A stretch of 22,600 nt of DNA from a virus. Below the pieces are notes generated by a model, which worked only from the letters and a program-made list of their open reading frames with translations, was not told where the DNA came from and searched no databases. Where the stretch lies: positions 1-22,600 of the IMG/VR virus record IMGVR_UViG_3300039191_000524; one strand, written 5' to 3'. The translations under genes and the position numbers were made by a program. Shown piece by piece: positions 7,623 through 22,249 of the stretch; within the stretch, counting starts at the first letter, position 1; every line of letters begins with the position of its first letter.

Positions 7623-8164
7623 TGACTCTTCCCACAACAATTATCCTTCCTCTTAGAACTGACTATTCAGATGAAGATATGGACCGATATTTGAGAGATT
7701 TGGTCTACCAAATACAAGATTTTTATGAGCAAGTCGCAGAGAACGTCAACGGATTCATCAGAAATAATGCCGAAGTCGACCAAGCAGTCTGGACTCCCAC
7801 TCTTGCAGGAACAGGAGCTGGAACTTTCACCTACACTCAGCAGGCAGGATGGTCAATTAGACAGGGAATATTCACTGAGATTTTCTTCGATATCACTTGG
7901 AGTGCCACAACTGCGACAGGCGATCTTTACGTAGAATTACCCTACATCGTGACATTAAGCGATGGGATGCCATTTGTAGGTGTTTTACAGCCTTCTAGCA
8001 TTGCGTTTGCACCTGCTACAAACTTAGTAATTAATGGAATACCAAACTCCTATAGAGGGGAGATATGGACAATAGGCTCTGGAGCGGCTACAGCTAATCT
8101 GGCTGTCCCAGCTTCTGGAAGACTGATTGGCAATCTTCGCTATATAGGACTGGAAGACGAATAA
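7622..8164 (+). CDS. Short tail fibre-like protein
   Basis: The gene encodes 180 residues and starts with a TAATG overlap with the nozzle gene. Residues about 15-50 (SDEDMDRYLRDLVYQIQDFY, EQVAENVNGFIRNN) form a long charged helix suited to trimer formation or tail attachment. From residue 55 the protein is beta-rich (WTPTLAGTGAGTFTYTQQAG, SIRQGIFTEIFFDITWSATT, GDLYVELPYIV) and ends with SGRLIGNLRYIGLEDE. A helix followed by a compact beta head is the usual plan of short tail fibres. This C-terminal style, with paired strands around an expression-like GEIW, is common in phage receptor-binding tips. Function is inferred from shape and neighbours. Confidence 0.65.
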   Translation: MTLPTTIILPLRTDYSDEDMDRYLRDLVYQIQDFYEQVAENVNGFIRNNAEVDQAVWTPTLAGTGAGTFTYTQQAGWSIRQGIFTEIFFDITWSATTATGDLYVELPYIVTLSDGMPFVGVLQPSSIAFAPATNLVINGIPNSYRGEIWTIGSGAATANLAVPASGRLIGNLRYIGLEDE

Positions 8165-8172
8165 CCCAAGAA

Positions 8173-8191
8173 ATGTAAAACAGCTTTACAT
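8173..8191 (+). repeat. Small AT-rich inverted repeat in the gap before the GNAT gene
   Basis: ATGTAAA (8173-8179) and TTTACAT (8185-8191) are perfect inverse copies around a five-base spacer. It lies in the only non-coding stretch between the fibre-like gene and the GNAT gene, 12 bases before the ATG at 8203. No U-tract follows, so it is not a standard terminator. It may be an RNA processing hairpin or a protein-binding palindrome. Confidence 0.35.
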
Positions 8192-8202
8192 CAGAGGATA
8201 AA

Positions 8203-8805
8203 ATGAAAAAAGTAGATGATTTAAGATGGATAAGAGTGTTCACACCCGACCATGTGCCTCATTATCTTATCGATCAGGTGAGGGAAAGAGACTACTCCGT
8301 AGAAGAGTTCTTTAAGTATCACCAGATTAATTGCATGACTCAAGGCGAAAAAGGAGTGGTTTTAAACCCCTTCTCTCATCTTTATGTACTTGCAGACAAA
8401 GAAAATAGAGTACAAGGAATGCTATGGTTTACTGTAGACCCTCTTAGTAAAGACATCTTAATCCAAACCTATTCGATGGATAAAGAGTACTGGGGAAAAG
8501 GTCTCGCTGTAAAAAAATTAGCGGAGCATATAAAACAAATTAGGAAAAAAGGTAATCTCAATAAGATATACTGGGTGACTAATTACCCGAAGCATAGCGA
8601 AAGGTATGGATTTAAGCGCTCAAAAAGTATATTGATGGAGTATACGGAGGAGAATCATGGGAAAAACAATGATGGGGTCAACCCAAAACGAGGGGAACAT
8701 AGACCTGCTGACTCAAGACCAGCAGAACTTCCTATCGAATGCGTTGGGAGGCCAGAACAGCCAGCAAGCGGGACAAGCATTCAACCAGTTCCTGCAGCCG
8801 TTTGA
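8203..8805 (+). CDS. GNAT-fold acetyltransferase-like protein with an out-of-frame overlapping tail
   Basis: The protein has 200 residues. Residues about 55-147 follow the GNAT plan. A central strand pair (SHLYVLADKENRVQGMLWF) leads to strand 4 and the acetyl-CoA pyrophosphate loop, MDKEYWGKGLAVKKLAEHI (92-110, motif A with GKGLA). Then come KIYWVTNYPKHSERYGF and the closing strand SILMEY. Similar GNAT-like genes lie beside ejection protein genes in some podoviruses, where they may be virion components and not housekeeping enzymes. Residues 152-200 (Pro/Arg-rich, no fold signal) are read from DNA that also encodes the start of the next gene in another frame, so this 49-residue tail may be only tolerated read-through. 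Substrate is unknown. Confidence 0.75.
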   Translation: MKKVDDLRWIRVFTPDHVPHYLIDQVRERDYSVEEFFKYHQINCMTQGEKGVVLNPFSHLYVLADKENRVQGMLWFTVDPLSKDILIQTYSMDKEYWGKGLAVKKLAEHIKQIRKKGNLNKIYWVTNYPKHSERYGFKRSKSILMEYTEENHGKNNDGVNPKRGEHRPADSRPAELPIECVGRPEQPASGTSIQPVPAAV

Positions 8806-9229
8806 TCAAGGTCAGTATGATCAGATGTTTCAGAAGTCCTTTATAGACCCTGCACAACAGGCTCTTCAACGTCAAATTATCCCTGGTATTAAGGAGCAAT
8901 TCTTAGGAATGGATGAATCAGGGTCGTCCGCTCTGAATCAAGCTTTATCTCAATCTGCAACGGACGTGTCAGGTCTTCTTGGCTCTCAATACATGAATCA
9001 ATATAATCAGCAGCAAGGAAATCTTCTTCAAGCACTTGGACTAATGTCTGGTTTAGGCTCGCAGAAAACATTTGAACCTATGTTGCAACAGAGACAAGGA
9101 CTTCTTGGACCCTTACTTGGAGCTGGGGGTGCCATCGGTGGAGGACTTTTAGGAGGTCTACTTGGTGGACCTGCAGGAGCTGTTGCCGGTGGAACAGCCG
9201 GTAGTCAATTAGGCAGAACGGTGTCATAA
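8657..9229 (+). CDS. Ejection/internal virion-type protein with C-terminal glycine zipper
   Basis: The gene encodes 190 residues. The ATG at 8657 has a very strong ribosome-binding site, GGAGGAG at 8646-8652, although it lies inside the upstream GNAT frame. The N-terminal two thirds are Gln/Asn-rich helix (QAGQAFNQFLQPFDQGQY, AQQALQRQIIPGIKEQFLG). Residues about 149-187 are a glycine-zipper hydrophobic stretch (GPLLGAGGAIGGGLLGGLLG, GPAGAVAGGTAG) that could insert into membranes. Podovirus ejection proteins such as those of P22-like phages are helical, with membrane-active Gly/Ala segments, and form a channel during DNA delivery. The location just before two large helical proteins supports this. 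The exact family is not recognised. Confidence 0.65.
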   Translation: MGKTMMGSTQNEGNIDLLTQDQQNFLSNALGGQNSQQAGQAFNQFLQPFDQGQYDQMFQKSFIDPAQQALQRQIIPGIKEQFLGMDESGSSALNQALSQSATDVSGLLGSQYMNQYNQQQGNLLQALGLMSGLGSQKTFEPMLQQRQGLLGPLLGAGGAIGGGLLGGLLGGPAGAVAGGTAGSQLGRTVS

Positions 9230-9239
9230 GGAGGCAACC

Positions 9240-10652
9240 ATGGTTTTAGTACTACCCGACCAATCAGGACTCGGAGAAGGAATCCAGCAAGCCGGTGGCA
9301 TGTTAGGAGGAGCTCTTCAACAAGCTCTTCAACAACGGAGAGGCCGAGAGGCTCAAGAACAAACGCATGCAATGTTAGCTGAGCAATTTCCCGCCGATAC
9401 TACATTGGGACGTGTTCTTAGAACTCCAGGCGGCCTACAGGTTGCCCAACAATTGAGCGGAATCCTGGGTCCTATTGCGAAAACCGAATCTCTCACCCAA
9501 CACTCTCAATCTATTCGTGAGCGCTACAAGCCTTCCTCTCAAGGTTATGAAGGAAATGAAGCCGCTCAAAGTTATGATGCTTCCGGTCAAGGAAGTGGAG
9601 CGGGTTACGGCTTGCCTCAAGCTCCCGGACGAGGAGATGTGGGAGCGAGAGTTCCTAAGGAACAACAAGAATATCAAGGCGAAGAAGGGGTGTCTCGTCC
9701 AGAGTCTACCGTTCAGGCTTTTGGTAATTCTCCCATCCAAATGACAAAGACAAAGTCTCCTTTAAAAGTCGAAGAAGGTGAAGAAATAGTAAGTACTCCG
9801 GCAGGAACATTTGCAGCCGCGGATTTCATTGAAACTCCTTTTGGCTCCTATCATCCAAATATGATAGCTGAACTTAATGCAAGCCCGAATCCTAGTGACC
9901 AAAGAGAAGCTCAAGTTATCAATCAATTCTTACTTCAGCAAGAGAACCTCAGTGGTCAGGAAGGAGTTCAGAAGAGAAAAGAATGGAGGAGCGAAATTAA
10001 TGCGTTCTCTAAACCTTTTCAAGATATCACTAAGATGGAGTCTCATGTTAAAAAACTAGAGAAAGGGAGACAGCTTATCCTTTCTGGAAAGACTAATCTT
10101 GATGACAACTGGATGAGACGAGCTACTCAAGCGGCTCTTGATGATAAAGGCGCGCCAGCACTAAGTGAACTCTTAAAGACTGAAGAGGATAGAATCCTTT
10201 ATTCATTGATTTACGATAGTCTTAGAACTAAAGAGCTTGGAGGAAGTAATCCTTCCACTCGTGAAGTCTTGCTCTCCTTAGCCGCGAAACCCTCTCCTTT
10301 CAAAGGGAAAAAAGCCAACATAGCGGTCATGAACGATATGCTACGACTTGCTCGAGAAAACGTAGAGAAAGGTAAAGCTATTGCCGAGATTCGGGATAGA
10401 AGCGGAGCTGTTTCCTTCGGAAGATTTCAAGCGGAAGTAGCGGAGAGATTAAGACCCATTCTTGCGAAAGAGGACCTGAGAATTGAAAATGAAACTCGTC
10501 TAGTAGACGCCCAGCTGTCTCTCAAAGGTAAGAAAGCTACATCTGGATTTAAATATATGCTTGCTCCTGACGACAAAGTCTATTCCGTACCGATAAAGGA
10601 CATCAAGCGTCTTCAAGACCAAGGTGGAGTCATGCTTTATGGCAACAAATAA
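9240..10652 (+). CDS. Putative internal virion (ejection) protein, helical
   Basis: The gene encodes 470 residues, with AAGGAGG before the ATG. The N-terminus is amphipathic and Gly/Gln-rich (SGLGEGIQQAGGMLGGALQQ), followed by Ala/Gln helices. A low-complexity Gly/Pro/Gln linker spans roughly residues 95-170. After about residue 215 the protein is continuous charged helix (EINAFSKPFQDITKMESHVK, ENVEKGKAIAEIRDRSGAVS). It ends with a small beta-like segment, FKYMLAPDDKVYSVPIKDIK, that resembles short phage modules placed at protein termini. No enzyme motif such as a transglycosylase Glu is evident. Size, composition and order (second of three) suit a DNA ejection protein. The 3' end overlaps the next gene by 14 bases. 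Confidence 0.6.
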   Translation: MVLVLPDQSGLGEGIQQAGGMLGGALQQALQQRRGREAQEQTHAMLAEQFPADTTLGRVLRTPGGLQVAQQLSGILGPIAKTESLTQHSQSIRERYKPSSQGYEGNEAAQSYDASGQGSGAGYGLPQAPGRGDVGARVPKEQQEYQGEEGVSRPESTVQAFGNSPIQMTKTKSPLKVEEGEEIVSTPAGTFAAADFIETPFGSYHPNMIAELNASPNPSDQREAQVINQFLLQQENLSGQEGVQKRKEWRSEINAFSKPFQDITKMESHVKKLEKGRQLILSGKTNLDDNWMRRATQAALDDKGAPALSELLKTEEDRILYSLIYDSLRTKELGGSNPSTREVLLSLAAKPSPFKGKKANIAVMNDMLRLARENVEKGKAIAEIRDRSGAVSFGRFQAEVAERLRPILAKEDLRIENETRLVDAQLSLKGKKATSGFKYMLAPDDKVYSVPIKDIKRLQDQGGVMLYGNK

Positions 10653-12393
10653 CCCATGGCAGAACTATGCGGTTGTTGGTGAAGAAGAATCTTCTCCAAC
10701 TCCGGGAGCTCCTCAAGGGGCTTCTCCGTGGTCTCAATACGAGACAGTATCACCTCCAGGCCTTGGAAGTGAAATCCTGGAAGGAACCGTTGAAGGTGTC
10801 AAAGGGGTAGGAAGGATAGCTGGTCGTTCTGCAGCTTCTCTTGTTGCAGCTCCTGCCAAAGGAATAGGTGGGATTTTAGAGTTATTATCTCAGTTTGGAA
10901 CCGAGGGAGAGCCAGGTCAAGTTAAAGGAGCGGGAACTAGACTTCTTAGAAATGTCGGACAATATCTCCAGAAGACCGGAAAGGGTGGAGAGAAATATCT
11001 AAAAGACCAAATCGAAAACGCTCTAGGGAAATCTTACACTTCATTTGAAGAGTCTTTAGCTGGATTTGGCGAAAGAGTTGCAGATATCTATGGAAGAGGT
11101 CCTTTTAAAGGAATGGCTCTTCCTGCAGCAGTGGGAGGAGCATCAGGCCAGATAGCTGAAGAGCTAGGAGCGTCGGAAGGAACTCAAGCTATTGCTGAGC
11201 TCGCCGGGATATTTGGTCCCGATGGAGCAAAAGCGGCTGTTTCATTGATTCCTAAGGCTCTCAAAGAAAAATCAGGTCTTATTTTACCTAAGATTGTTGA
11301 GAAGACGAAAGAGGGCTTCAAAGCTATTGCTCCCAAAGTTTTTCAAGGGAAGAAAGAAAAGGTCTACCAAGGCGTATCTGATCAAGCTAAAACCCTTATT
11401 AATAAGATTCAAAGAGAAAAAATGCCTCTTACTAAGAAACTAGAAGAAGGGATTGATGTTGAAGGCATTCTTAATAAGCAGCTAGACGAAGTACAGAAAA
11501 TAGCCGGCGAGATGCCTCATCAAATCGAAAGCAACTATCTTTCAGACTATTTGAAAAAGGTAAAAAAGGACATCCGAAAATCTCCGGTTCCCACGGAAGA
11601 ACAAGATAAAATCTTAAAGCTAGTTGAGAAGTACCAAAAGTCATATGGACAAACGGAAGGTGGCCTCCGTTTTTATTCTCCCCAAGAGTACTTAAAGCAG
11701 TTCAGAAACATCAATAAAGACGCTAAAAAGCTCTATGAAACGAAACTTTTGCAAGGAGAGCAGAGAGAAACCATTGGTTTTTATGAGGGTCTCAAGAAAG
11801 AGATTTCCAAAACCTTCGAACTTGGAACTCCTAAAGAGTTCTCCGATCTTTTCAAGGCTACGAATAAGGAATTCTCAGAGCTCTCTAACATAAACCGCTT
11901 TGAAACCGTCATGGAAGGCGTTACCTCTAATGGTGTCATAGATGCTTCTAAGCTCAGCAAAAAGATTTCCTCACAGAAAGGCTCCAGATTACTTAGAAGA
12001 CAGCTAGGAAAAGAGGGATTCGATCACTTAAAGGCCATTTCGGATGATTTAGTCAAGGTCAAAGACAAGCTCAAACTCGTAGACGAACTCGGATTGGGTT
12101 CTCTGGTAAAGAGCGCTGTAGCTGCTGGCGTGTTATCCAAACTAGGCGTTCCTTTTGCTAAAACAGCACAGGGAGGTAAAAAGCTGTTAGAGTTAGGGCA
12201 AGGCTATATGCTTATGAACCCTCGCGGTTTTAGAGATACTCAGAATTTCTTGAAAGCCCTTCAGTCAGGAAGTAAAAAATCCATTCAGACCTACCTAAGA
12301 CGTCTAGATAAGCATGCTTTGGAATATCAGAAAGAAAATCCTTCAGTCTATCCATATGAGCAAAGCGCCGAGCCCGAAAAAAAGACTTCCTAA
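10639..12393 (+). CDS. Putative internal virion (ejection) protein, Lys-rich helical
   Basis: I start the protein at the ATG at 10639, giving 584 residues. GGTGGAG at 10623-10629 is at proper spacing, and a GTG 15 bases upstream would add five residues. The N-terminus NNPWQNYAVVGEEE and then SPWSQYE are motifs common at the start of phage internal virion proteins. Residues 45-90 (numbered from the ATG) are Gly/Ala-rich and could be membrane-active (GRIAGRSAASLVAAPAKGIG). A further Gly/Ala-rich helix lies near 155-185 (AAVGGASGQIAEELGA). From about 240 onward the protein is long, Lys/Glu-rich coiled helix. A final hydrophobic stretch (SLVKSAVAAGVLSKLGVPF) precedes the basic C-terminus. This is the plan of ejection proteins delivered before the DNA. 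The antisense peptide gene at 12343 overlaps its last 51 bases. Confidence 0.6.
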   Translation: MATNNPWQNYAVVGEEESSPTPGAPQGASPWSQYETVSPPGLGSEILEGTVEGVKGVGRIAGRSAASLVAAPAKGIGGILELLSQFGTEGEPGQVKGAGTRLLRNVGQYLQKTGKGGEKYLKDQIENALGKSYTSFEESLAGFGERVADIYGRGPFKGMALPAAVGGASGQIAEELGASEGTQAIAELAGIFGPDGAKAAVSLIPKALKEKSGLILPKIVEKTKEGFKAIAPKVFQGKKEKVYQGVSDQAKTLINKIQREKMPLTKKLEEGIDVEGILNKQLDEVQKIAGEMPHQIESNYLSDYLKKVKKDIRKSPVPTEEQDKILKLVEKYQKSYGQTEGGLRFYSPQEYLKQFRNINKDAKKLYETKLLQGEQRETIGFYEGLKKEISKTFELGTPKEFSDLFKATNKEFSELSNINRFETVMEGVTSNGVIDASKLSKKISSQKGSRLLRRQLGKEGFDHLKAISDDLVKVKDKLKLVDELGLGSLVKSAVAAGVLSKLGVPFAKTAQGGKKLLELGQGYMLMNPRGFRDTQNFLKALQSGSKKSIQTYLRRLDKHALEYQKENPSVYPYEQSAEPEKKTS

Positions 12394-12459
12394 TCCCCCG
12401 CTAAACTCACAAATCACTAAACACACAACAGAACAAACTGCTTTGAGGAAAAATTTCAT
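12343..12459 (-). CDS. Small hydrophobic membrane peptide (38 aa), antisense to the structural operon
   Basis: This small frame is supported mainly by its ribosome-binding site: GGAGG (complement of 12466-12470) lies six bases before the ATG at 12457-12459, with just one base between the upstream gene's stop and this start. The peptide starts MKFFLKAVCSVVCLVICEFS, a basic N-terminus followed by a hydrophobic, Cys-containing segment. A Gly-rich turn and a second hydrophobic segment (LGSLFFGLGALLIWID) follow. It would sit in the membrane as one or two helices. Its last 51 bases overlap the end of the plus-strand ejection gene. It is coupled behind a ribbon-helix-helix gene, so a toxin, exclusion or host-membrane role is possible, but nothing in the sequence proves function. 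It may also be a chance frame. Confidence 0.5.
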   Translation of the reverse strand: MKFFLKAVCSVVCLVICEFSGGLGSLFFGLGALLIWID

Positions 12460-12460
12460 G

Positions 12461-12634
12461 TTAAACCTCCTTTTTGTGTTTTAAATAAAACTCTCTTAAA
12501 GCTTGAGTCAGGATAAAGTTTTTACTTTTATTCTGCTGATAAGCTAGAAGTCTGAGCATTTCATACTCTTTTGATGAGAGCCTCATATTCAGAGCCTTCT
12601 TTTTATCTCTGGTGCGGTAATTATCTACTTCCAT
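12461..12634 (-). CDS. Ribbon-helix-helix DNA-binding protein (57 aa)
   Basis: The frame runs from ATG at 12634-12632 to TAA at 12463-12461. A basic N-terminal arm (VDNYRTRDKKK, residues 3-13) precedes strand ALNMRLS (14-20). Helix 1 follows (SKEYEMLRLLAYQQN, 21-35), then the turn KSKN and helix 2 (FILTQALREFYLKHK, 40-54). The spacing and the pattern Leu-x-Met-Arg-Leu-Ser, then helix, then turn, then helix are those of CopG/Arc-type proteins, which dimerise through the strand and read DNA with it. An AAGGA lies nine bases before the start. The promoter region just upstream carries two inverted repeats, suggesting autorepression. It is antisense to all neighbouring virion genes and coupled to the small peptide gene downstream. 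Confidence 0.8.
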   Translation of the reverse strand: MEVDNYRTRDKKKALNMRLSSKEYEMLRLLAYQQNKSKNFILTQALREFYLKHKKEV

Positions 12635-12650
12635 AAGGGTTTGTCCTTAC

Positions 12651-12664
12651 CTCAATCAATTGAG
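12651..12664. promoter_or_regulatory. Second inverted repeat at the predicted transcription start
   Basis: CTCAAT (12651-12656) and ATTGAG (12659-12664) are perfect inverse copies separated by two bases. They lie just downstream of the predicted minus-strand start of transcription, inside the leader. The sequence differs from the 12680-12701 repeat, so it may be bound by another factor or be chance. Confidence 0.4.
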
Positions 12665-12673
12665 TATGGTGCT

Positions 12674-12702
12674 ATTGTACCACTTTGTGAAATAAAAGTG
12701 GA
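12674..12702 (-). promoter_or_regulatory. Extended -10 promoter for the antisense cassette
   Basis: Read on the minus strand, TGGTACAAT (complement of 12674-12682) is a TGn-extended -10 element with five of six bases of TATAAT. Seventeen bases further upstream, TCCACT (complement of 12697-12702) is a weak -35 with three of six matches. A start of transcription near 12667 would leave a leader of about 33 bases before the ATG at 12634. The spacer is covered by an inverted repeat. Confidence 0.55.
12680..12701. promoter_or_regulatory. Inverted repeat between -35 and -10 (possible operator)
   Basis: CCACTTT (12680-12686) and AAAGTGG (12695-12701) are perfect inverse copies with an eight-base AT-rich centre. 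They occupy the spacer of the minus-strand promoter, the position where a bound repressor would block RNA polymerase. The dimeric ribbon-helix-helix protein encoded downstream is the obvious candidate ligand, by inference. Confidence 0.5.
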
Positions 12703-12779
12703 GAAATAAAAGATAAAAGAATATCTTGAGCAAAAAGACCCCAGAACCACAATACGGGCATCTAACACGCGAGGAAAAA

Positions 12780-14891
12780 ATGGCAAAAAAAATTCTTAGA
12801 GCATATAGCGTGGACCAACCTCTTGTTGATGTCCCACACTTAGCTATTAACTCATCCCGAGCTCCCACAGCAGTCGACAGAGATTTCGCTATAGGTGATC
12901 CGTGGATACACAAAACAGACGCAGACAATGCGACAATGTACAATTTCGGTGGCCTGGATTCTAGCCAAGATGCTATCTGGATTTTAGCTGGTCCTGGAGA
13001 CTCAGAAGTTGATACTCTACAAGGCGATTCAGGGGGAGCGATTGCTCCGACAGCAGGAAATATCGTGATGACAGGTGGAACCAACATCACAACTGTAGGT
13101 ACGGCTGGTCCCGGAACCATTACTTTTAATTTAGATGGAGCGATTACTTTAGCTACGTCCGTAACTTCAGCTCTTTATACGACAGCAGCAGGTACGGATC
13201 TTTTGATTACAGCTGTAACCGGTCAAGACATCGTTCTTAAGATGGGAGATGCGGGTGGAGCTAACAAGGTTTCCTTCACAGACAGTGCGGACGTAGAAGT
13301 GTTCTCAGTAGACTCTGATGGGGCGTTGACTTTCTCAAGTCTCGTGGTTACAGGAGCCTTTACTCAATCCGGAGGGACAGCCTCTCTTAATGCTTCCTCT
13401 ACCTTTAACACCGTAATTAACTCTGGGACTTCCAGTGGAACGGTCACGATTGGGAACAGTGTAGCCGGAGCCATTACAATAGACTCGGGAGCCGGCATTA
13501 GTTTAGATGCCGCAGCAGCGTCGAATTTTACTACTGCAGGAGCTGGAATTGATATAGATATAATTTCTGGAGCTGGAAGAGTCATCGTAACAGCCGGAGA
13601 AGACGCTGCGGATGCGATCTATCTTCATGCTGATGCAGGAGTAAGTGAAACCATTAGACTTCACTCCGATCAGGGAACCGGGGTAGCCTCTGTTCATTTA
13701 GAATCAGATGTAGGTGGCGTTACTTTAACGTCCGGTCTAGCGAGTGCCGATGCTATTAATTTATCAGCTACAGCTGGTGGAGTAGACATTGATGGTGCGC
13801 TTCAGGTAAACATTGCTTCTTCTCAAAACGCCGCTGATGCAGTGAGAATTAATGCAAGTGCTGGTGGTATCGATATTGATGCAGCTGGTGCAGCTGGTGA
13901 AGACATTACTATAGATAATGCCGCCGGCTCAATTGTAATAACAGCAGCCGAAGCCGCAGCCGATGCACTTGTTATCAATGCATCCGGTGGTGGTATAGAC
14001 ATCACAGCAGCTACCAATGACCTTGATATAGTAGCAACCGCCGCTTCTGCTAACCTTAGTGGTGGTGAAGCCGACGCAGCAGCCGTTAGGATTAACGCAA
14101 GCAATGCTGGCGGAGGTATGGATATCGATGCTGGAACGCTAGGTATTGCGATTGACTCTACTGGAGCAATCAGTATAGATGCCGCGGCCGCTTCTAACTT
14201 CTCAGTAAGTGGAGCGGGAATCGATTTAAATTTTGCCTCTTCAGCGGGTCGTATCATAGCGACTTCCGGAGAAGATGCAGCCGATTCTATCTACTTACAT
14301 GCTGATGCAGGGAGCAGTGAAACTATCAGATTACATTCTGACCAAGGAACTGGTGTTGCTTCTGTAGCCCTGGTCTCAGATGTAGGTGGTGTTACTCTAA
14401 CTTCTGGTTTAGCTTCAGCTGACGCGATTAACTTAAGCGCAAGTGCTGGTGGGGTAGATATCGATGGGGCTCTAGAGATTAACATCGCATCTAGCCAAGT
14501 GGCAGCCACAGCGGTTAATATCGTAGCGTCTGACGCAGCGGGTGGAATCACCATGACAGCTGGTACAGGTAATGTGAATGTCGCGGGTAACTTCGCACTC
14601 ACTTCTGTTGCCACTCAGATGATTATGAACGGTGGAGCTGTAACGGACTTTATTGGTCAAGCTACCTTGGTGAACGGTGAAATCACAGTTTCCAATACTA
14701 ATATAGCAACGACTGATAGGATATTTGTTGGTAGAAGTGCAATTAACGCTTCAACAGCATTAGGAATGCCTTTAACAACTATCGTTAATTCTACGAGCTT
14801 TAAAATAGAGGCAAAATCTCTAGTTACACCTGCAAATGATGAGACTGGTGACCAATCCACATTTGACTATGTAATCATAAGACAAAGCTAA
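12780..14891 (+). CDS. Repeat-rich fibre/adhesin-type protein
   Basis: I choose the ATG at 12780 (703 residues) because GAGG lies five bases upstream. A TTG at 12726 would give 721 residues but lacks a clear ribosome-binding site. The N-terminal 75 residues hold a probable attachment part (HKTDADNATMYNF). A module at residues 80-119 (APTAGNIVMTGGTNITTVGT) is shared with the fibre genes at 15800 and 17931. From about 240 to 600 the protein is a long array of short Ala/Asp/Gly/Ile-rich repeats, such as AVRINASAGGIDIDA and IYLHADAG, probably a beta-helix or beta-prism shaft. It includes a 109-residue duplication. The final 70 residues form a non-repetitive cap. Low Lys/Arg and high Ala/Gly/Ser/Asp suit a secreted-like virion fibre. 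Receptor unknown. Confidence 0.75.
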   Translation: MAKKILRAYSVDQPLVDVPHLAINSSRAPTAVDRDFAIGDPWIHKTDADNATMYNFGGLDSSQDAIWILAGPGDSEVDTLQGDSGGAIAPTAGNIVMTGGTNITTVGTAGPGTITFNLDGAITLATSVTSALYTTAAGTDLLITAVTGQDIVLKMGDAGGANKVSFTDSADVEVFSVDSDGALTFSSLVVTGAFTQSGGTASLNASSTFNTVINSGTSSGTVTIGNSVAGAITIDSGAGISLDAAAASNFTTAGAGIDIDIISGAGRVIVTAGEDAADAIYLHADAGVSETIRLHSDQGTGVASVHLESDVGGVTLTSGLASADAINLSATAGGVDIDGALQVNIASSQNAADAVRINASAGGIDIDAAGAAGEDITIDNAAGSIVITAAEAAADALVINASGGGIDITAATNDLDIVATAASANLSGGEADAAAVRINASNAGGGMDIDAGTLGIAIDSTGAISIDAAAASNFSVSGAGIDLNFASSAGRIIATSGEDAADSIYLHADAGSSETIRLHSDQGTGVASVALVSDVGGVTLTSGLASADAINLSASAGGVDIDGALEINIASSQVAATAVNIVASDAAGGITMTAGTGNVNVAGNFALTSVATQMIMNGGAVTDFIGQATLVNGEITVSNTNIATTDRIFVGRSAINASTALGMPLTTIVNSTSFKIEAKSLVTPANDETGDQSTFDYVIIRQS
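13500..13826 (+). repeat. Long internal duplication, copy A (109 codons)
   Basis: It encodes 109 residues beginning SLDAAAASNF and ending VNIASSQ. By hand alignment without gaps it matches copy B (14172-14498) at about 90 of 109 residues. The DNA differs at many third codon positions, so the copies are old or were kept apart at nucleotide level. Confidence 0.9.
14172..14498 (+). repeat. Long internal duplication, copy B (109 codons)
   Basis: It encodes 109 residues beginning SIDAAAASNF and ending INIASSQ, in the same frame as copy A and 672 bases downstream. The longest unchanged protein stretch is SDVGGVTLTSGLASADAINL; the corresponding DNA shows many synonymous changes. Confidence 0.9.
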
Positions 14892-14903
14892 TAGGAGAAA
14901 CGG

Positions 14904-15233
14904 ATGGCCCTCTTTACAGATTTCGAAATAAAAGAATTCGATTCGGCTTCCCTAACAGGGTCGTACCAAAATTTTGGTGCGGTCCTGACCTATCCTTGTT
15001 ATGAAGTTATTTTCTTTAATGGATCTGACGTAGATGTTTATGTTTCCCTTGATGGGACGACGGATAATATTCGCGTAGCTTCAGGTCAATCATTACCTAT
15101 GACTGGCTTTAGAAAATATAGTCCTTCGCCTGATGGAATGTATTTATTTAAGAAAGGCGAGCAGCTTCAAATTAAACAGGTGACAGGAACGGGAACTGGA
15201 TTTATTGTGATAAATTGTTTAATGACGAGGTAA
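14904..15233 (+). CDS. Small beta-sandwich-type virion protein of unknown function
   Basis: The gene encodes 109 residues, with AGGAGA before the ATG and 12 bases after the long fibre gene. The sequence is beta-rich with aromatic edge residues: FTDFEIKEFDSASLTGSYQN, YEVIFFNGSDVDVYVSLDGT, then LPMTGFRKYSPSPDGMYLF, and closing strands LQIKQVTGTGTGFIVINCLM. The phrase NGSDVDVYVSLDGTTD suggests a compact fold of the type found in small phage decoration or tail-tip proteins. There is no enzyme motif. It is followed after four bases by another beta protein, so both may contribute to the fibre assembly. Confidence 0.7.
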   Translation: MALFTDFEIKEFDSASLTGSYQNFGAVLTYPCYEVIFFNGSDVDVYVSLDGTTDNIRVASGQSLPMTGFRKYSPSPDGMYLFKKGEQLQIKQVTGTGTGFIVINCLMTR

Positions 15234-15237
15234 ATAC

Positions 15238-15792
15238 ATGAGCGCTAGCGGACAAAATCGTCCCTTTAAATTTGGGGCAAACGACCGACGAGAGTTCATT
15301 GTTCAAGACTCGGAAGTTTCATTTATCGCTATCAATGATTTGAACGGGAATCCTATTTATCTCGGAAGAGCTAAAGTAGGCTCTGCTCTGTCAGAACCTA
15401 AGTGGCAGATTAGATTCATTGAATATGACTCCAACCAAGGGGTTACACGCGTTACTTGGCCTGTAAATGATGAAAGTGCAGCTTCGGCTGATTTCGAGTT
15501 TATTTGGACTGCTGTATCTGATTTAACAATCACCACTATTTCTCAAGCGGCTACGGCTGTAGTAACAGTATCCGATTTAGGAACTCTTGCTAATGGAGAC
15601 CTGATTGTGATTCAAGATGTCGCCGGAATGACTGACGTGAACTTTGATGGCTCTAACATTTATACAGTAGCTAATATTAGTGCTGGACCTAAGACATTTG
15701 AGCTTAGTGGTATAAACAGCTCAGCTTTTGGAGCTTATACCTCTGGAGGCATCGTAATATATGGCGCTGTTGTCAATTACACCTATTCATGA
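15238..15792 (+). CDS. Virion-associated beta protein with FCCH-like C-terminal domain
   Basis: The gene encodes 184 residues with a weak GAGG before the ATG. Residues 1-90 form one beta domain (KFGANDRREFIVQDSEVSFI, NGNPIYLGRAKVGSALSE, TRVTWPVNDESAASADFEF), which looks like a phage structural adaptor. Residues about 98-173 (TISQAATAVVTVSDLG, NGDLIVIQDVAGMTDVN, IYTVANISAGPKTFELSG, GAYTSGG) match the FCCH-like pattern found twice in the nozzle protein and once beside the capsid. The pairing of a unique N-terminal part with a re-used beta module suggests modular growth of the fibre system. It is eight bases upstream of the next fibre ATG. Function is inferred from context only. Confidence 0.7.
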   Translation: MSASGQNRPFKFGANDRREFIVQDSEVSFIAINDLNGNPIYLGRAKVGSALSEPKWQIRFIEYDSNQGVTRVTWPVNDESAASADFEFIWTAVSDLTITTISQAATAVVTVSDLGTLANGDLIVIQDVAGMTDVNFDGSNIYTVANISAGPKTFELSGINSSAFGAYTSGGIVIYGAVVNYTYS

Positions 15793-15799
15793 GGAGTAA

Positions 15800-17338
15800 A
15801 TGGGTTATAAATATAATGCAATCACAGGTGAGTTGAATGTAAGCATAACTGACCCAATCCCCGTCGACTACGCAAATGAGTTTGTGACAGATTCGGGAAC
15901 TGCCGTTCCAGCTGCTCATGTAATTAACTTTATCGGAGACGCTACTCAGGGAATTTCAAGCTCAGGTGCAGGAAGCACGGTAACTTACACGTTGTCAGAC
16001 GCAACCTCCTCTCAGAAAGGGGTGTCAGAGCTCGCAACAGATGCTGAGTCAATAGCTGGCTCAGATACGTCAAGAACCATCGTTCCCAGCTCTCTAAACG
16101 CAAAATTAGGCAGTTTAACTGCTAACTCTCTCCCTTTTGGACAAGGAAGTTCCTCCGCTATTGGTTGGACCTCAGCTTTAACTGATGGTCAGATGATGAT
16201 TGGAAGTACGGGCGTAGCTCCTTCCGCGGGAGTTATTACCTCAAGTGGAGGCACTATCACTGTTACCACGGGAGCCGGAACTTTAAACTTAGATGTGGCT
16301 GGTGGAACTACGGCTATAGATTCTTTTAGTCCTGATTCAGGGACTGACCCCGTTGTTCCAACGGTAGCAGGCCTTGTAAATATGAGTGGCTCCGGAAGCC
16401 TAACAACCGTGGGAAGCTTAAATACTCTTACATTTCAGCTCACTGGTCTGACTCAATACAATGTGCTTGTTGGAGCGGGTTCAACTACAATTACAAAAGT
16501 TGCACCTGGAGCCACGGGGATACCTTTAGTTTCCCAGGGAGCAGCCGCGGATCCAGCCTTTTCTACGGCAGTAGTAGGAGGTGGTGGAACCGGTGCTACA
16601 TCTTTAACTGATGGTGGTATCTTACTCGGTTCTGGAACAGCAGCTGTAACAGTTACGGCTCAGCCAGTCAATGGAGAGCTCTTGATGGGAAGTACCGGAG
16701 TCGATCCTGTGCTAGCCACTATCACCGCAGGAGCTAATGTAACGGTTACGAATGGAGCTGGCTCTATTACCATTGCAGCGGATGGCGGAGGAGACGGCGA
16801 TGTTGTAGGGCCTGCTGCTGCCACGGACAATGCTTTAGCTAGGTATAACACCACCTCAGGAAAACTCTTACAAGATAGTAGCGTGATCGTGACGGATGCT
16901 GGTGAGATGACTAATGCATCTCAACCTTGTTTTTTAGCTACTCACAGCGCTGATCAGTTAAATGTAACAGGTGATGGAACCCAAGCTACAGTAGCTTATA
17001 CCACCGAAATTACAGACCAGAATGCGGATTATGATGGAACGGATACGTTTACAGCTCCCGTAGCGGGAAATTATTCTTTTAATGGAAATGTATTTATTTC
17101 TAATACTGGAGCCGCCACACAGGCGCGTATATTTATAGTAACAAGCAATCGATCTTATGCGGGTAATGTAGACACCCCGATTTCAGGATCTTCGGTTCCT
17201 GGGCTGGCTCTTATAGCAGCCGATATGGATGCGCTGGATACCTGTACCGCAGCTGGTCAAGCTTCCGGAACCACCAAGACCGTGCATTTTGCAAATAGTG
17301 TTTCAGATGCCTATTTTAGTGGGTCTTTAAATTGTTAA
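15800..17338 (+). CDS. Multidomain tail fibre with C1q/TNF-like C-terminal head
   Basis: The gene encodes 512 residues, with GAGGAG before the ATG. Domains in order: N-terminal segment; a phage tail-fibre repeat unit SSQKGVSELATDAESIAGSD (71-90) ending IVPSSLNAKLG; and two related Gly/Ser/Thr units, at 129-169 and 291-330 (GSTGVAPSAGVITSSGG and GSTGVDPVLATITAGAN). Between them is the shared module SFSPDSGTDPVVPTVAG (175-215 overall). From 333 there is a conserved linker, GDVVGPAAATDNALARYN, also present in the gene at 17931. The last part (about 377-512) contains FTAPVAGNYSF, typical of C1q/TNF-like trimeric heads, and ends in a terminal Cys. It is probably a trimeric receptor-binding fibre. 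Confidence 0.75.
   Translation: MGYKYNAITGELNVSITDPIPVDYANEFVTDSGTAVPAAHVINFIGDATQGISSSGAGSTVTYTLSDATSSQKGVSELATDAESIAGSDTSRTIVPSSLNAKLGSLTANSLPFGQGSSSAIGWTSALTDGQMMIGSTGVAPSAGVITSSGGTITVTTGAGTLNLDVAGGTTAIDSFSPDSGTDPVVPTVAGLVNMSGSGSLTTVGSLNTLTFQLTGLTQYNVLVGAGSTTITKVAPGATGIPLVSQGAAADPAFSTAVVGGGGTGATSLTDGGILLGSGTAAVTVTAQPVNGELLMGSTGVDPVLATITAGANVTVTNGAGSITIAADGGGDGDVVGPAAATDNALARYNTTSGKLLQDSSVIVTDAGEMTNASQPCFLATHSADQLNVTGDGTQATVAYTTEITDQNADYDGTDTFTAPVAGNYSFNGNVFISNTGAATQARIFIVTSNRSYAGNVDTPISGSSVPGLALIAADMDALDTCTAAGQASGTTKTVHFANSVSDAYFSGSLNC
16796..16927 (+). repeat. Fibre linker module, copy in the 15800 gene
   Basis: It encodes 44 residues starting GDVVGPAAATDNALARYN and ending MTNASQP. It matches 18717-18848 at 38 of 44 residues by direct comparison, marking a shared module between two fibre genes. 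Confidence 0.9.
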
Positions 17339-17347
17339 GGAGAAGAA

Positions 17348-17929
17348 ATGAAATTTTCAATAGACGGTAATCAAAAATTTGAGCTTTTGGATTGGCATAA
17401 GTCATTAATTAAAAATGATATTCGGTCAGATATTTTCGATGCGGACATGAAAAGACGAGCTACATATAGTGTGGATATGCTTATCCATAAATTAGTTCAT
17501 TCTAATAAGGAAAAATTCCTTAAGCAATTAAAGTCGCTAGAGGTGAAAGAAGTACCAGGTAAATTAGAAGACCTAACTGAGTTTATTGGCTCAAGAGATG
17601 ACATGGGATTACAATCCACTGAGATGACAAGTGGGGTTTCTCTAGAGTGCGATTCAGTTGCTATCCATTCAATCTCGGCTGCCTATCTAAATCTTGCGAA
17701 AACATACTTTCAAAAGTCGGAGATGGACTATCTCACCGACCAACTTGAGTGGGCATTCAATGAAAAGATCAAAGGGTGTTTAAGGCGTATGCATGCAGAA
17801 TGGGATCCTAAACTATCCGACAAGTCTATTTCCATTCCTCTTGATGACGAAATTTTTGTTAATCTCGTAATCTCTCAGCCGGATTATAAAGATCGATCTA
17901 GTAGAGATGCAGAAGCAGTAGAGGTTTAA
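17348..17929 (+). CDS. Unknown helical protein embedded between two fibre genes
   Basis: The gene encodes 193 residues, with AAGGAGAAG before the ATG. Unlike its neighbours it is charged and helical, with many Lys, Asp, Glu and Leu. Segments include LDWHKSLIKNDIRSDIFDAD, KEKFLKQLKSLEVKEV and YFQKSEMDYLTDQLEWAFNE. There are a few beta-like pieces (SISIPLDDEIFVNLVI) and an acidic C-terminus. No membrane segment or known motif is seen. A soluble globular protein between two repeat-rich fibres could be a fibre-assembly chaperone, which phages often encode next to the fibre; this is inference from position and composition only. It ends two bases before the next ATG, so cotranslation is likely. Confidence 0.75.
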   Translation: MKFSIDGNQKFELLDWHKSLIKNDIRSDIFDADMKRRATYSVDMLIHKLVHSNKEKFLKQLKSLEVKEVPGKLEDLTEFIGSRDDMGLQSTEMTSGVSLECDSVAIHSISAAYLNLAKTYFQKSEMDYLTDQLEWAFNEKIKGCLRRMHAEWDPKLSDKSISIPLDDEIFVNLVISQPDYKDRSSRDAEAVEV

Positions 17930-17930
17930 T

Positions 17931-19286
17931 ATGAGTTCAAATCCTGGTTATCCTCCAAATCCTTTATCGATTCCTCTCATTAATTCCAACTTGGTGCCTA
18001 TAAGGACCTTTCCCAGGAGACCGACAACTCAGGATGTAAAATACAGGCCAGGACAATTTGCTATTCTAAATAACAACCCTTCAACTGGAAGTGCTGGGGA
18101 GCTCTGGTATCTATCTTACTTCAGTTCTGGGGTGCCGCAATGGGTACAACTCGCAGCCGGTGGAGTGGATTTAGAGAGCTTTATTCCTGATAGCGGTACA
18201 TCTCCGGTGGTTGCTGATGCTTCTAATCAAGTTACGATGGCCGGTGGAACTAATCTTAATACAGTTGGAGGGACTAACACTCTTACTTTCAACTTAGATG
18301 ATCCTTTTTCCGTGGCCGCAGCAACTATTACTACTCTGGGATCTACTACTGGAAACATAACCACTGTCAATTCAACTACAGTCAATGCCACTACCTTTGA
18401 TACAAATGTCGCAGCAGCCGCAGTGACGCTAGCTGGTACGACTCTAGCAGCGGACGGAACAGACACTAATATCAACCTGACTCTCACCCCTAAAGGAACT
18501 GGCTTTCTAACAACAACGAAAGCAGCCTCTGGTCAATGGTGGCAATTCATAGATGGAACCGATACCTTTGGTTACTACAATAACGCAGGAACTCCTGAAG
18601 CAGCTGTCACAGCTTCCATAGGTTCTTGGTGTTCCGATACCACGAACGGAGCCATCTATGTAAAAAACACAGGGGATGCAACTAATACAGGATGGGTAGA
18701 ACTTGACAGTGGAACTGGTGATGTAGTAGGACCAGCGAGCGCCACCGACAATGCTCTCGCACGCTTCGACTCTACGTCCGGGAAATTAGTACAGGATAGT
18801 ACAGTGATAGTCACCGATGCCGGAGAGATGACGAACGCCAGTCAACCCGCTTTCTCGGCCAACTTAGGAACTCAAGCTGATAATGTAACCGGCTCAGGAA
18901 CTGCTTATACCTTAGGAGATACAGATGTAGGAGTAGCCCTTACTGAAATATTTGATCAAAATGGAGACTTTGCCCCTGGATCAGCAGCTGGTGCTATTTT
19001 CACAGCTCCGGTCACCGGAAAATATAATTTATATGTTTACTGGATAGCGCTGGGATGTACGGTCGCAACTAATTTTGATACTCAAATCGTCACCTCAAAC
19101 CGAGGATATCCTATTACCTTTGTAAAAGCTGCCGGTTCCGAGAACGAATCCCAAGCTCTTTCTGTACTCGCTGACATGGATGCTTTAGATACCTCCACGT
19201 CGGTTCTCACTGTAACTGGAGAAGCTGGAGACACGGTAGATATAGGCAACACATCTACTGTATTTATGGGAAACCTAGCATGTTGA
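17931..19286 (+). CDS. Second multidomain tail fibre, related to the gene at 15800
   Basis: The gene encodes 451 residues. GAGG at the end of the preceding gene serves as ribosome-binding site. The N-terminal 80 residues are distinct (NPGYPPNPLSIPLINSN, ELWYLSYFSSGVPQWVQLAA), probably the attachment part. Residues 83-123 hold the module SFIPDSGTSPVV with GGTNLNTVGGTNTLTFNLD. Then come short Thr-rich repeats (TTLGSTTGNITTVNSTTVNA) and a globular section with WWQFIDGTDTFGYY. From 263 the linker GDVVGPASATDNALARFD matches the fibre at 15800 at 38 of 44 residues. A C1q/TNF-like head (FTAPVTGKYNLYVYW) follows, ending in a terminal Cys. It is probably a paralogous receptor-binding fibre with a different tip, giving an alternative host range. 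Confidence 0.75.
   Translation: MSSNPGYPPNPLSIPLINSNLVPIRTFPRRPTTQDVKYRPGQFAILNNNPSTGSAGELWYLSYFSSGVPQWVQLAAGGVDLESFIPDSGTSPVVADASNQVTMAGGTNLNTVGGTNTLTFNLDDPFSVAAATITTLGSTTGNITTVNSTTVNATTFDTNVAAAAVTLAGTTLAADGTDTNINLTLTPKGTGFLTTTKAASGQWWQFIDGTDTFGYYNNAGTPEAAVTASIGSWCSDTTNGAIYVKNTGDATNTGWVELDSGTGDVVGPASATDNALARFDSTSGKLVQDSTVIVTDAGEMTNASQPAFSANLGTQADNVTGSGTAYTLGDTDVGVALTEIFDQNGDFAPGSAAGAIFTAPVTGKYNLYVYWIALGCTVATNFDTQIVTSNRGYPITFVKAAGSENESQALSVLADMDALDTSTSVLTVTGEAGDTVDIGNTSTVFMGNLAC
18717..18848 (+). repeat. Fibre linker module, copy in the 17931 gene
   Basis: It encodes 44 residues starting GDVVGPASATDNALARFD and ending MTNASQP. The DNA differs from the 16796 copy at many third positions although the protein is nearly the same. 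Confidence 0.9.
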
Positions 19287-19982: not shown

Positions 19983-20187
19983 GGCGATCGATGTTATTCT
20001 TAATCTCATCGTATAAGTCATTCCAAGCTTCTCTAGTGAATGACTTTTGGTGCATGTATATATTGAGAACTTCCATATCTTCTAACACGTAGATCAGATA
20101 TTTCTTCTCAGTACAAAGAAAAGCTGCACATCCATGGTCTAAAGCTTCTTCAATACTTTGGGGCTCAAAACCTTCATCCCAGCTCAT
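19930..20187 (-). CDS. Small acidic protein of unknown function, last gene of the minus operon
   Basis: The gene encodes 85 residues. The ATG overlaps the stop of the YqaJ-like gene (ATGA), with GGGAGG five bases upstream. The protein is acidic and mixed alpha/beta: IEEALDHGCAAFLCTEKKYL, IYVLEDMEVLNIYMHQ, a helix EAWNDLYDEIKNNIDRLKEH, and a charged C-terminus. I see no known motif. Being translationally coupled to the nuclease suggests a partner or regulator of recombination, but that is only context. Its 3' end overlaps the opposing Cys-cluster gene by 53 bases. Confidence 0.75.
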   Translation of the reverse strand: MSWDEGFEPQSIEEALDHGCAAFLCTEKKYLIYVLEDMEVLNIYMHQKSFTREAWNDLYDEIKNNIDRLKEHPTRQRLSVPEDPE

Positions 20188-21059
20188 TTTTCCTCCCTAA
20201 GGCTCCATCTTTCACTCGGTTTCTTTCTGTAACTGTCTAAATCCACCTTTAAAAGCTCAGGAATCGCCTGATAGTCCACTCGACCAGGGATTACACTCCT
20301 CGTATAGCGAAAGCCCCCTGCGCGTGAATTAAGGCCCTCTGAGTAGTCTTTCAACATAGACTCTAATGCCTTTTCTTCCGTTTCGAGGGCTCGCTTCTCT
20401 TTTTTGAGTTCCCAAAGCCTAGACGCACATTCCTTCCAAGAGTCGTCGCGCTCTATAAAGTCAGCTTCGATCAAGTCCGGTTCTTCCAAATTCTCAACGC
20501 AGTTCCAAAACTTAGATTCTTTTTTAAGCATATCGTCTATGTAGTCTTCGTCACGAGGAAGGGTGACAATGACGCCTTCGCCTTTATGATAAGAAAAGTA
20601 GTCAATCTGAGTAATATTGTAAAGTCTGAATAAAATTTCTAACTGATGCATGACTTGTGGGTAATAATGCACAGGCACTTTCCCTTTTTTGGCTGCCGCA
20701 TGGTCTTCAGCGCTACAGTTTTTAATCTCTACCGCTCTATCTTGGGTAATATTTATACCATCAAGACTAGCCATCATGTATTTCAAATCCGGATGAAACA
20801 CCACGTCAGCTGCAAACTCATCTCCTACAAGCTTTTGGTAAGCTTGTCTTGCTGGCTCTTCCATTGCCGTGCCAAACCGAGTCGCTACGTTATCGATAGA
20901 TCCATCTAACATCCCCAGCTTCTCTTGACAAAGTAAACGGGGAGTTTTCACCCTCCCGTCGTTCATCTTGAACTTACAGACTCCCATAATGATAGGAGCA
21001 TCTGAAGCGCCAATATGATTCTTTCGCATATCTAACCATTCTTTACTTCCCTGTTCCAT
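20184..21059 (-). CDS. YqaJ-like viral recombinase / lambda-Exo-type PD-(D/E)XK nuclease
   Basis: This 291-residue protein starts EQGSKEWLDMRKNHIGASDA (2-21), the usual opening of the YqaJ/lambda exonuclease family. The motif GTAMEEPARQAYQKL (63-77) carries the conserved acidic pair. ASLDGINI gives the catalytic Asp100, and AVEIKNCS gives the Glu111-x-Lys113 of the PD-(D/E)XK site. Then YYPQVMHQLEI (132-142) has the Gln residues typical of the family. The C-terminal 100 residues are charged helix (RLWELKKEKRALETEEKALE) and probably an oligomerisation or partner-binding arm. In this family the enzyme digests the 5' strand of double-stranded DNA ends and works with an annealing protein, here encoded two genes upstream. 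TGATG coupling to the preceding gene supports a shared complex. Confidence 0.88.
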   Translation of the reverse strand: MEQGSKEWLDMRKNHIGASDAPIIMGVCKFKMNDGRVKTPRLLCQEKLGMLDGSIDNVATRFGTAMEEPARQAYQKLVGDEFAADVVFHPDLKYMMASLDGINITQDRAVEIKNCSAEDHAAAKKGKVPVHYYPQVMHQLEILFRLYNITQIDYFSYHKGEGVIVTLPRDEDYIDDMLKKESKFWNCVENLEEPDLIEADFIERDDSWKECASRLWELKKEKRALETEEKALESMLKDYSEGLNSRAGGFRYTRSVIPGRVDYQAIPELLKVDLDSYRKKPSERWSLREEK

Positions 21060-21289
21060 CAGATTCCTCCTTTATTTTCTTTCTCTTCTCGTTGATGATA
21101 CGGGTGAAGATAGATCAAAATTTCTTCAATTCCCCATTCAATTATAGCGAATTTAACTATAGCCATATAAGCTGCTTTTTGTAGTTCTTTAGCTTCTTTT
21201 CCTTGATTTTCTAAAAGAGCTAATGAGGCTTTTAATTGGTCTGCCGCATTCTGAGCTACGATTTCAAAAAAAGATTTTTCTTCACTCAT
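21059..21289 (-). CDS. Small helical protein between annealing protein and nuclease genes
   Basis: The gene encodes 76 residues. It overlaps both neighbours: its ATG shares a base with the stop of the RecT-like gene (TAATG) and its own TGA with the nuclease start (TGATG). The AAGGAGG upstream is strong. The sequence is almost all helix: SFFEIVAQNAADQLKASLAL, ENQGKEAKELQKAAYMAIVK, followed by a hydrophobic section (FAIIEWGIEEILIYLHPYH) and a charged end. No DNA-binding motif is recognised. A gene fixed between annealing protein and exonuclease is a good candidate for an accessory or adaptor of that pair, by context only. Confidence 0.75.
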   Translation of the reverse strand: MSEEKSFFEIVAQNAADQLKASLALLENQGKEAKELQKAAYMAIVKFAIIEWGIEEILIYLHPYHQREEKENKGGI

Positions 21290-22086
21290 TAAATTCCTCC
21301 TTCCATTTCGTCTTGAAGTTGAACTTCAGACTTAGATTTCTCAAGAACCTTTTCGTACATCTCTTTGGGCATCTCCCACAGACTTTGGATTCCTTTTCTC
21401 TCAAGGAACTTCATCACCTTTGCCTTGTACTGAGGAACCTTATCAATGAAGAACGAAAGAGTCTTATGTTGTTCTTCAGTTAACTGATCCGATTTCTTGA
21501 CTGGAGCGTCAATTTGAGGTATTTCATTAACTTTCACCTCATCTCCCACGGTTTCACTTGAAATATTTGAGTCCAATGAGATCTCTCCCTCAACATAGCA
21601 ATTGCCAATGATATCAGGGAAAAGCTGCCTAGCTAGCCTTGAAAGAGCTCTAGCATAGAGCATATCTCGTGTGAAATTAGCCCAGACCGGATTCTTTGTA
21701 AGCCCAGCTTTCTGAGCCTCTTCTATAGAAAAGCTCTCAGTCCAGCAGTCCTTTGTATCAGCACGCTTTCCATGAAGGATGCAGACTGTATTACTCGACC
21801 TTGTGTCTCGCGTGATAGAGTGTTTCTTCTGACGGATAAGAGCAGCCATCATACGCGATGACATCTCTACTTTCCCCTTCACGTAGTACAATCCACCTCC
21901 TAAGGCAAGTCTAGGATCGACGTTAAGGCTCTTTGCAGTCTCTACAATCGCAAATATACCCTCAGGACCCATCTTGGCATAGTGAGGGGTCTTCATTAGC
22001 AACTGGCATAACTCCTGCGTGTTCTTGAGTTCTGCCAAGTAATTTGTTTGTGGCTTAACCACAATTTCTTTATTTTCTACTATCAT
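21289..22086 (-). CDS. RecT-like single-strand annealing protein
   Basis: I start at the third of three consecutive ATGs (22086; 265 residues) because AAAGGAG then has six bases of spacing. A start at 22131 would add 15 residues and overlap the upstream gene by 62 bases. The core (about residues 40-168 from this start) reads GPEGIFAIVETAKSLNVDPR, LGGGLYYVKGKVEMSSRMMA, then WTESFSIEEAQKAGL and NPVWANFTRDMLYARALSRL, and ends FPDIIGNCYVEGE. This fits a phage group usually described as RecT-like annealing proteins. The C-terminal 100 residues are charged and linker-like, typical of the exonuclease-binding tail. It pairs complementary strands exposed by the YqaJ-like nuclease during phage recombination and replication. 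Confidence 0.72.
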   Translation of the reverse strand: MIVENKEIVVKPQTNYLAELKNTQELCQLLMKTPHYAKMGPEGIFAIVETAKSLNVDPRLALGGGLYYVKGKVEMSSRMMAALIRQKKHSITRDTRSSNTVCILHGKRADTKDCWTESFSIEEAQKAGLTKNPVWANFTRDMLYARALSRLARQLFPDIIGNCYVEGEISLDSNISSETVGDEVKVNEIPQIDAPVKKSDQLTEEQHKTLSFFIDKVPQYKAKVMKFLERKGIQSLWEMPKEMYEKVLEKSKSEVQLQDEMEGGI

Positions 22087-22249
22087 CATCATCTCCTTTA
22101 GTAAGCTCTTTTTGAGCTGTTTTATAGCCAAGCCAGTACATGCTTCTGGTCAATAGAATTAACAATTCATGCTCAGGAAGACAAGAAAGACATAAAGTCT
22201 TGCCGTCTCCTAAGTCTTCTAATTTGGATTCACACTCCTGGCAATACAT
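22070..22249 (-). CDS. Small zinc-ribbon-like protein
   Basis: From the ATG at 22249 the protein has 59 residues. GTG ATG ATG lies in a row at 22255-22247, and the last ATG has AGGAGG at five-base spacing, the best distance. It opens MYCQECESKLEDLGDG, and CLSC follows, so Cys 3, 6, 20 and 23 form two CxxC knuckles of a zinc ribbon. The rest is a helical piece (EHELLILLTRSMYWLGYKTA) and a charged tail ending DDDSRK. Such small ribbons bind zinc and often act as regulators or subunits of DNA-handling complexes. It overlaps the next gene by 17 bases and the previous one by 20. Function is not assigned. Confidence 0.75.
   Translation of the reverse strand: MYCQECESKLEDLGDGKTLCLSCLPEHELLILLTRSMYWLGYKTAQKELTKGDDDDSRK

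Follow-up and report, generated by a model that had tools for sequence, protein, structure and literature searches.

C1q domains are carried in hypervariable recognition islands of marine and cryoconite phages, where C1q-headed putative receptor-binding genes lie by the tail fibres and are varied by recombination against a conserved core genome (Mizuno 2014, PMC3909814; Bellas 2020, PMC7468147). The distant Alteromonas phages A5 and V22 have in common modules composed of a tail fibre and its cognate chaperone (PMC10579305). The receptor-binding proteins of Klebsiella phages are modular and branched, with an anchor, a shaft and a swappable C-terminal domain, and more than one of them is present per virion (PMC6872550).

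The locus described here shares features with each of these systems. Like the recognition islands, it places C1q-headed genes by tail fibres in a region varied by recombination; it differs in having two C1q fibres with a common linker that flank a doubled small gene, K, and the parts of PMC3909814 and PMC7468147 considered here do not mention a linked small gene. As in A5 and V22, a fibre and its downstream small partner are exchanged between unrelated phages, although K has no sequence similarity to gp9 of A5 (hhalign probability 0.1%) and sequence comparison gave no C1q head in the A5 fibre. The anchor, shaft and swappable C-terminal domain of the Klebsiella proteins are also found, and judged from the genes there would be more than one fibre per virion, but two of the fibres, B and C, bear C1q heads and no depolymerases. 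The cluster is therefore a case of well-documented, ordinary fibre mosaicism, C1q-headed recombining phage fibres having already been published, and C1q-type heads recur in environmental phages. For the K family, no published description was found in the papers searched.

The window, that is, the whole stretch of DNA that was analysed, is an entire virus record of 22,600 bases; related records mostly measure 33-40 kb, and the window is probably a fragment of a phage genome. Its genes are those of a tailed phage and include capsid, tail, fibre and RecE/RecT genes, and its major capsid protein matches the phrog_1357 major head protein (5.8e-43), which places the source, an uncultured short-tailed phage, in the Caudoviricetes. 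Contig L096 (8,587 bases) is 99.99% identical to positions 5393-13979 of the window, which indicates that the same phage was assembled independently. An ORF check recovered three long and three small genes where an earlier note on this DNA had placed them:

12780..14891, + strand: gene A, fibre-type protein of 703 aa (ORF; N-terminal domain and module by profile)
14904..15233, + strand: small gene, 109 aa (relatives at the same place; no family match)
15238..15792, + strand: small conserved gene, 184 aa, probable tail protein (Pfam E1_FCCH, 1.1e-7)
15800..17338, + strand: gene B, C1q-headed fibre protein of 512 aa (ORF; head homologous to that of C)
17348..17929, + strand: gene K, 193 aa, with a domain of ~95 aa present twice (profile matches); proposed fibre assembly partner
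17931..19286, + strand: gene C, C1q-headed fibre protein of 451 aa (ORF)

Gene A, which has an in-frame TTG upstream at 12726, has counterparts in the corresponding position in most related phages. The number of promoter sites inside the fibre cluster was not above that in shuffles.

We consider it probable that this region is a host-recognition module of at least three separate fibres with swappable C-terminal domains, in which K is a proposed partner of the C1q heads. In this explanation A and C would be held by related but distinct N-terminal domains and B by its own, and each fibre would consist of a shaft built from repeats followed by an exchangeable C-terminal domain, a C1q-type head in B and C and a K1-lyase_C domain in A. 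New combinations would arise when phages exchange segments of shaft and head, and the likely joints are the conserved stretches of shaft and linker. K would be needed to fold or trimerise the C1q heads, or to cap them transiently, and would be gained and lost with them. The segments on which this explanation draws are the following:

12780..13013, + strand: N-terminal (putative anchor) domain of A, aa 1-78 (same domain family as the N-terminus of C)
13023..13136, + strand: module of A, aa 82-119 (profile match 3.6e-10)
13473..13883, + strand: internal repeat copy 1 of A, aa 232-368 (77% identical to aa 456-594)
14145..14561, + strand: internal repeat copy 2 of A, aa 456-594 (77% identical to copy 1)
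14652..14819, + strand: K1-lyase_C domain of A (PF24146), aa 625-680 (Pfam 34.5 bits, cut-off 27)
15887..15997, + strand: first module copy of B, aa 30-66 (profile match 3.6e-12; missed by the earlier note)
16331..16444, + strand: second module copy of B, aa 178-215 (profile match 5.7e-8)
16796..16927, + strand: linker of B, 44 residues, aa 333-376 (38/44 identical to the linker of C)
16928..17335, + strand: C1q-like head of B, aa 377-512 (alignment; profile and fold matches)
17931..18164, + strand: N-terminal (putative anchor) domain of C, aa 1-78 (same domain family as the N-terminus of A)
18186..18302, + strand: module of C, aa 86-124 (profile match 3.5e-10)
18717..18848, + strand: linker of C, 44 residues, aa 263-306 (38/44 identical to the linker of B)
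18849..19283, + strand: C1q-like head of C, aa 307-451 (AlphaFold pLDDT mostly above 85-90; Z 16.0 to Caprin-2 C1q)

The three long genes had been said to share a 40-residue module. This module is real, with a length of ~37 residues, and its Smith-Waterman scores exceed those of shuffles by 11.8 SD (C versus A) and 14.9 SD (C versus B). In the fetched loci and the window, a profile built from the three copies matched 112 copies, distributed over 75 proteins with up to six per protein; one protein of locus L005 has three consecutive copies at a spacing of 43 residues. The module is a common shaft unit and no mark peculiar to the cluster in the window.

Profile comparison also revealed an N-terminal domain common to A and C, which the earlier note had not described; gene B has no domain of this type and begins with an N-terminus of its own. 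In a tree of this domain the A anchors of the phage group separate from the C anchors (branch support 100/99), with the exception of two distant genes in the C position that fall on the A side. The two anchors are old, separate lineages. Comparison of the domain fold with the PDB gave weak matches only (best Z 3.6), and the matches in BFVD are uncultured Caudovirales proteins of unknown function. The internal repeat of gene A, of about 137 residues, was detected through the near-identical contig L096. With regard to a catalytic domain that would make gene A a capsule depolymerase, Pfam gave only the K1-lyase_C domain, and no PDB sequence match was obtained. Overall, the conserved N-terminal domain, repeat shaft and variable C-terminal head found here are those of a fibre protein.

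The linkers of B and C are identical at exactly 38 of 44 positions, as had been claimed. At the DNA level they are identical at 93/132 positions, and the codon differences comprise 24 synonymous and 6 non-synonymous changes. This divergence, being mostly synonymous, indicates that the linker is no recent copy. Several related genes also have the front half of the linker before non-C1q sequence, and versions with a "GEMTNASQP"-type ending precede C1q heads; the linker looks like a two-piece element, made of a generic shaft portion and a head-proximal one.

The heads behind these linkers belong to one family, with about 38% identity over 122 aligned head residues and 46% over the 192 aa of head plus linker. 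The linker, at 86% identity, is better conserved than the heads (about 38-46%), which agrees with the earlier note. That note had proposed C1q/TNF-like heads, and a C1q fold is supported both by profile searches and by the predicted structure of the C head. A profile of 31 members of the head family matched the PDB entries of cerebellin-1 (3.3e-8 for three repeats together) and EMILIN-1 (0.0016), and two relatives of the family pass the cut-off of the Pfam C1q family PF00386; the heads of the window, searched alone, gave no PF00386 match at E<=1. The AlphaFold model of the C head aligned by VIA with the C1q domain of Caprin-2 (Z 16.0, rmsd 2.2, 127 residues) and by Foldseek with C1QL1 (2.9e-6), and among the predicted viral proteins nearest to it several carry a C1q annotation. 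The jelly-roll fold (Z up to 16) and the C-terminal position are common to these predicted heads and to the eukaryotic C1q/TNF heads of C1QL, cerebellin and Caprin-2, although the identity is only about 15% and the heads of the window are fused to phage fibre shafts. On this modelling the heads of B and C are C1q folds. The structures are models of single chains, and the heads are most likely trimeric receptor-binding tips. In some distant relatives three short C1q-headed genes stand in tandem and are followed by one K gene (L005 7878-9871, L106 5202-7194 and L099 15358-17383).

To compare the cluster among relatives, 156 related stretches were collected by a scan with the capsid protein, and the best 80 of the 156 were kept (capsid 78-91% identical). 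The order of the fibre cluster is largely kept in the genomes examined, and the C-terminal types are redistributed among anchors and positions. Anchors of one kind bear unrelated heads, and heads of one kind are found on unrelated anchors, both in close relatives and in more distant phages. For example, type T8 occurs on genes A and B of G008 and type T1 on B and C of G004, and C1q heads were found on N-termini N1, N2 and others. The capsid protein of G024 is only 34% identical to that of the window, yet its B piece is 69% identical; in G028 and G029 the capsid is 38-43% identical and A is 49-50%. The occurrence of A and B pieces in phages with capsids only 34-43% identical points to exchange between backbones. 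This comparison bears out the domain swapping that had been suggested, with C-terminal domains exchanged between genes and between phages, and it shows several distinct fibre genes per genome, the products of which would be present together in the virion.

The least familiar element of the locus is K. Its two domain copies (aa 1-85, 2.5e-25, and aa 99-189, 5.1e-30) were matched through the family profile only, and the two halves of the protein gave no direct mutual alignment. The domain is usually single in relatives and doubled in the window. A correspondence of the doubling to the two C1q fibres was rejected, because doubled K also occurs beside a single C1q gene. No significant match to the K family was found in Pfam, PHROGs, NCBIfam or the PDB, and tblastn gave no match in cultured phages. 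Assignment by homology to a known tail fibre chaperone of the DUF4376 type was discarded, given the lack of a Pfam, PHROGs or NCBIfam family and of similarity to A5 gp9. Genes of DUF4376-type chaperones lie directly beside the fibre gene, and so does K: a scan of viral contigs that used only the K family gave 80 loci, and in 79 of them a C1q-headed gene is adjacent. The C1q head lies within 300 bp upstream in 73 of these loci and directly downstream in 6, and the remaining one is cut by the contig end. At 70% identity the 80 loci fall into 18 clusters, which means that the independent cases are fewer than 80, and these counts come from metagenomic contigs with common ancestry. Among close relatives that span the fibre region, K is present in 4 of 5 genomes with C1q, the window being one of the four, and in 0 of 17 others (p 7e-4). 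Seen from the heads, K is directly downstream in 35 of 73 evaluable C1q loci and elsewhere in the locus in more; roughly a third to a half of loci have C1q heads without K, which indicates that not every head needs it. The similarity of K gave about equal partial rank correlations with the N-terminal part of the fibre (0.28) and with the head (0.24), and sequence covariation therefore does not single out the head.

Alternative readings concern first the architecture of the cluster. In phage G7C and in Klebsiella phages a single tail-anchored fibre carries others via a docking domain, and the earlier note had suggested a branched or multi-specific apparatus. The row of several fibre genes would fit such an arrangement, as would B, which lacks an N-terminal domain of the A/C type and could dock on another fibre. 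Unlike in the Klebsiella phages (PMC6872550), no T4gp10-like docking domain was found in Pfam or PDB sequence searches, an absent match that weighs little by itself, and A and C each possess an N-terminal domain of their own; we regard branching as improbable. Growth by duplication had also been proposed. In the sense of recent duplication this is unlikely, given that the anchors of A and C are separate lineages and the heads of B and C are not sisters, each grouping with heads of other phages (SH-aLRT 89-91 from few columns). The head tree, of modest support, and the synonymous divergence of the linker disfavour a recent duplication of the two heads; each was probably taken up independently from a common pool. 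Genomes in which a head type is repeated were no more frequent than after shuffling (10 versus 9.5 genomes, p 0.49). It is likewise very unlikely that only one of the three fibres is functional and that a recent gene duplication left the remaining two as relics or alternates: the modules common to the three genes would agree with this, but all three genes are intact and lie close together, with intergenic gaps of 1-12 bp from A to C, the A anchor and the C anchor are each conserved in their own right among relatives, and the linker differences are mostly synonymous (24 vs 6).

For K, the size of the protein, its place and the precedent of fibre-chaperone pairs (PMC10579305) suggest by analogy an assembly partner specific to C1q-headed fibres. 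The genetic linkage to C1q genes would fit equally well with a structural part of the C1q fibre, such as an adaptor or tip protein, and in other fibre systems tip proteins are encoded beside the fibre. This role appears rather unlikely: K is short and charged, inspection of its sequence by eye makes it probably helical, many C1q fibres have no adjacent K, and K stands beside C1q fibres with unrelated N-termini, which argues against an anchor adaptor though not against a tip protein. Returning to the assembly partner, we tentatively propose that K represents an unrecognised, widespread family of assembly factors dedicated to C1q heads and moving between unrelated phages, so that head and K together form an exchange unit for host range. 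The libraries searched name no folding partner for C1q heads. If K is one, it would be a marker for C1q fibres, a route to soluble fibres for receptor studies and a concrete unit of exchange for phage recognition modules.

The three small genes had been described as virion-like. This is plausible for 15238 as a tail protein, and 17348 carries no virion signature. Gene 15238 is 47-73% identical in most relatives, some of which lack the FCCH part. E1_FCCH is named from the ubiquitin-activating enzyme E1; one such domain occurs in 15238 and two in the large tail protein at 5463-7622.

A close relative (L330/L355/L356, JAAKFB010000001.1, 36,464 bases) has a capsid protein 86% identical to that of the window and the same fibre cluster, with a C1q head and K. 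This contig belongs to a MAG that bears the label Chlamydiae bacterium K1000_chlam_2. Another Chlamydiota genome contains a 35 kb contig with a capsid 40% identical, a C1q head and K; these are the two K genes in 232 Chlamydiota genomes, and both adjoin C1q heads. Both contigs have the size of a phage genome, and the length of the first far exceeds that of the other fetched contigs of its MAG, which may reflect mis-binning; environmental Chlamydiae as hosts are only a hint.

Just downstream of the fibre cluster, on the minus strand at 20184-22131, lie genes for a RecE-like exonuclease and a RecT-like annealing protein, which could favour recombination at short homologies.
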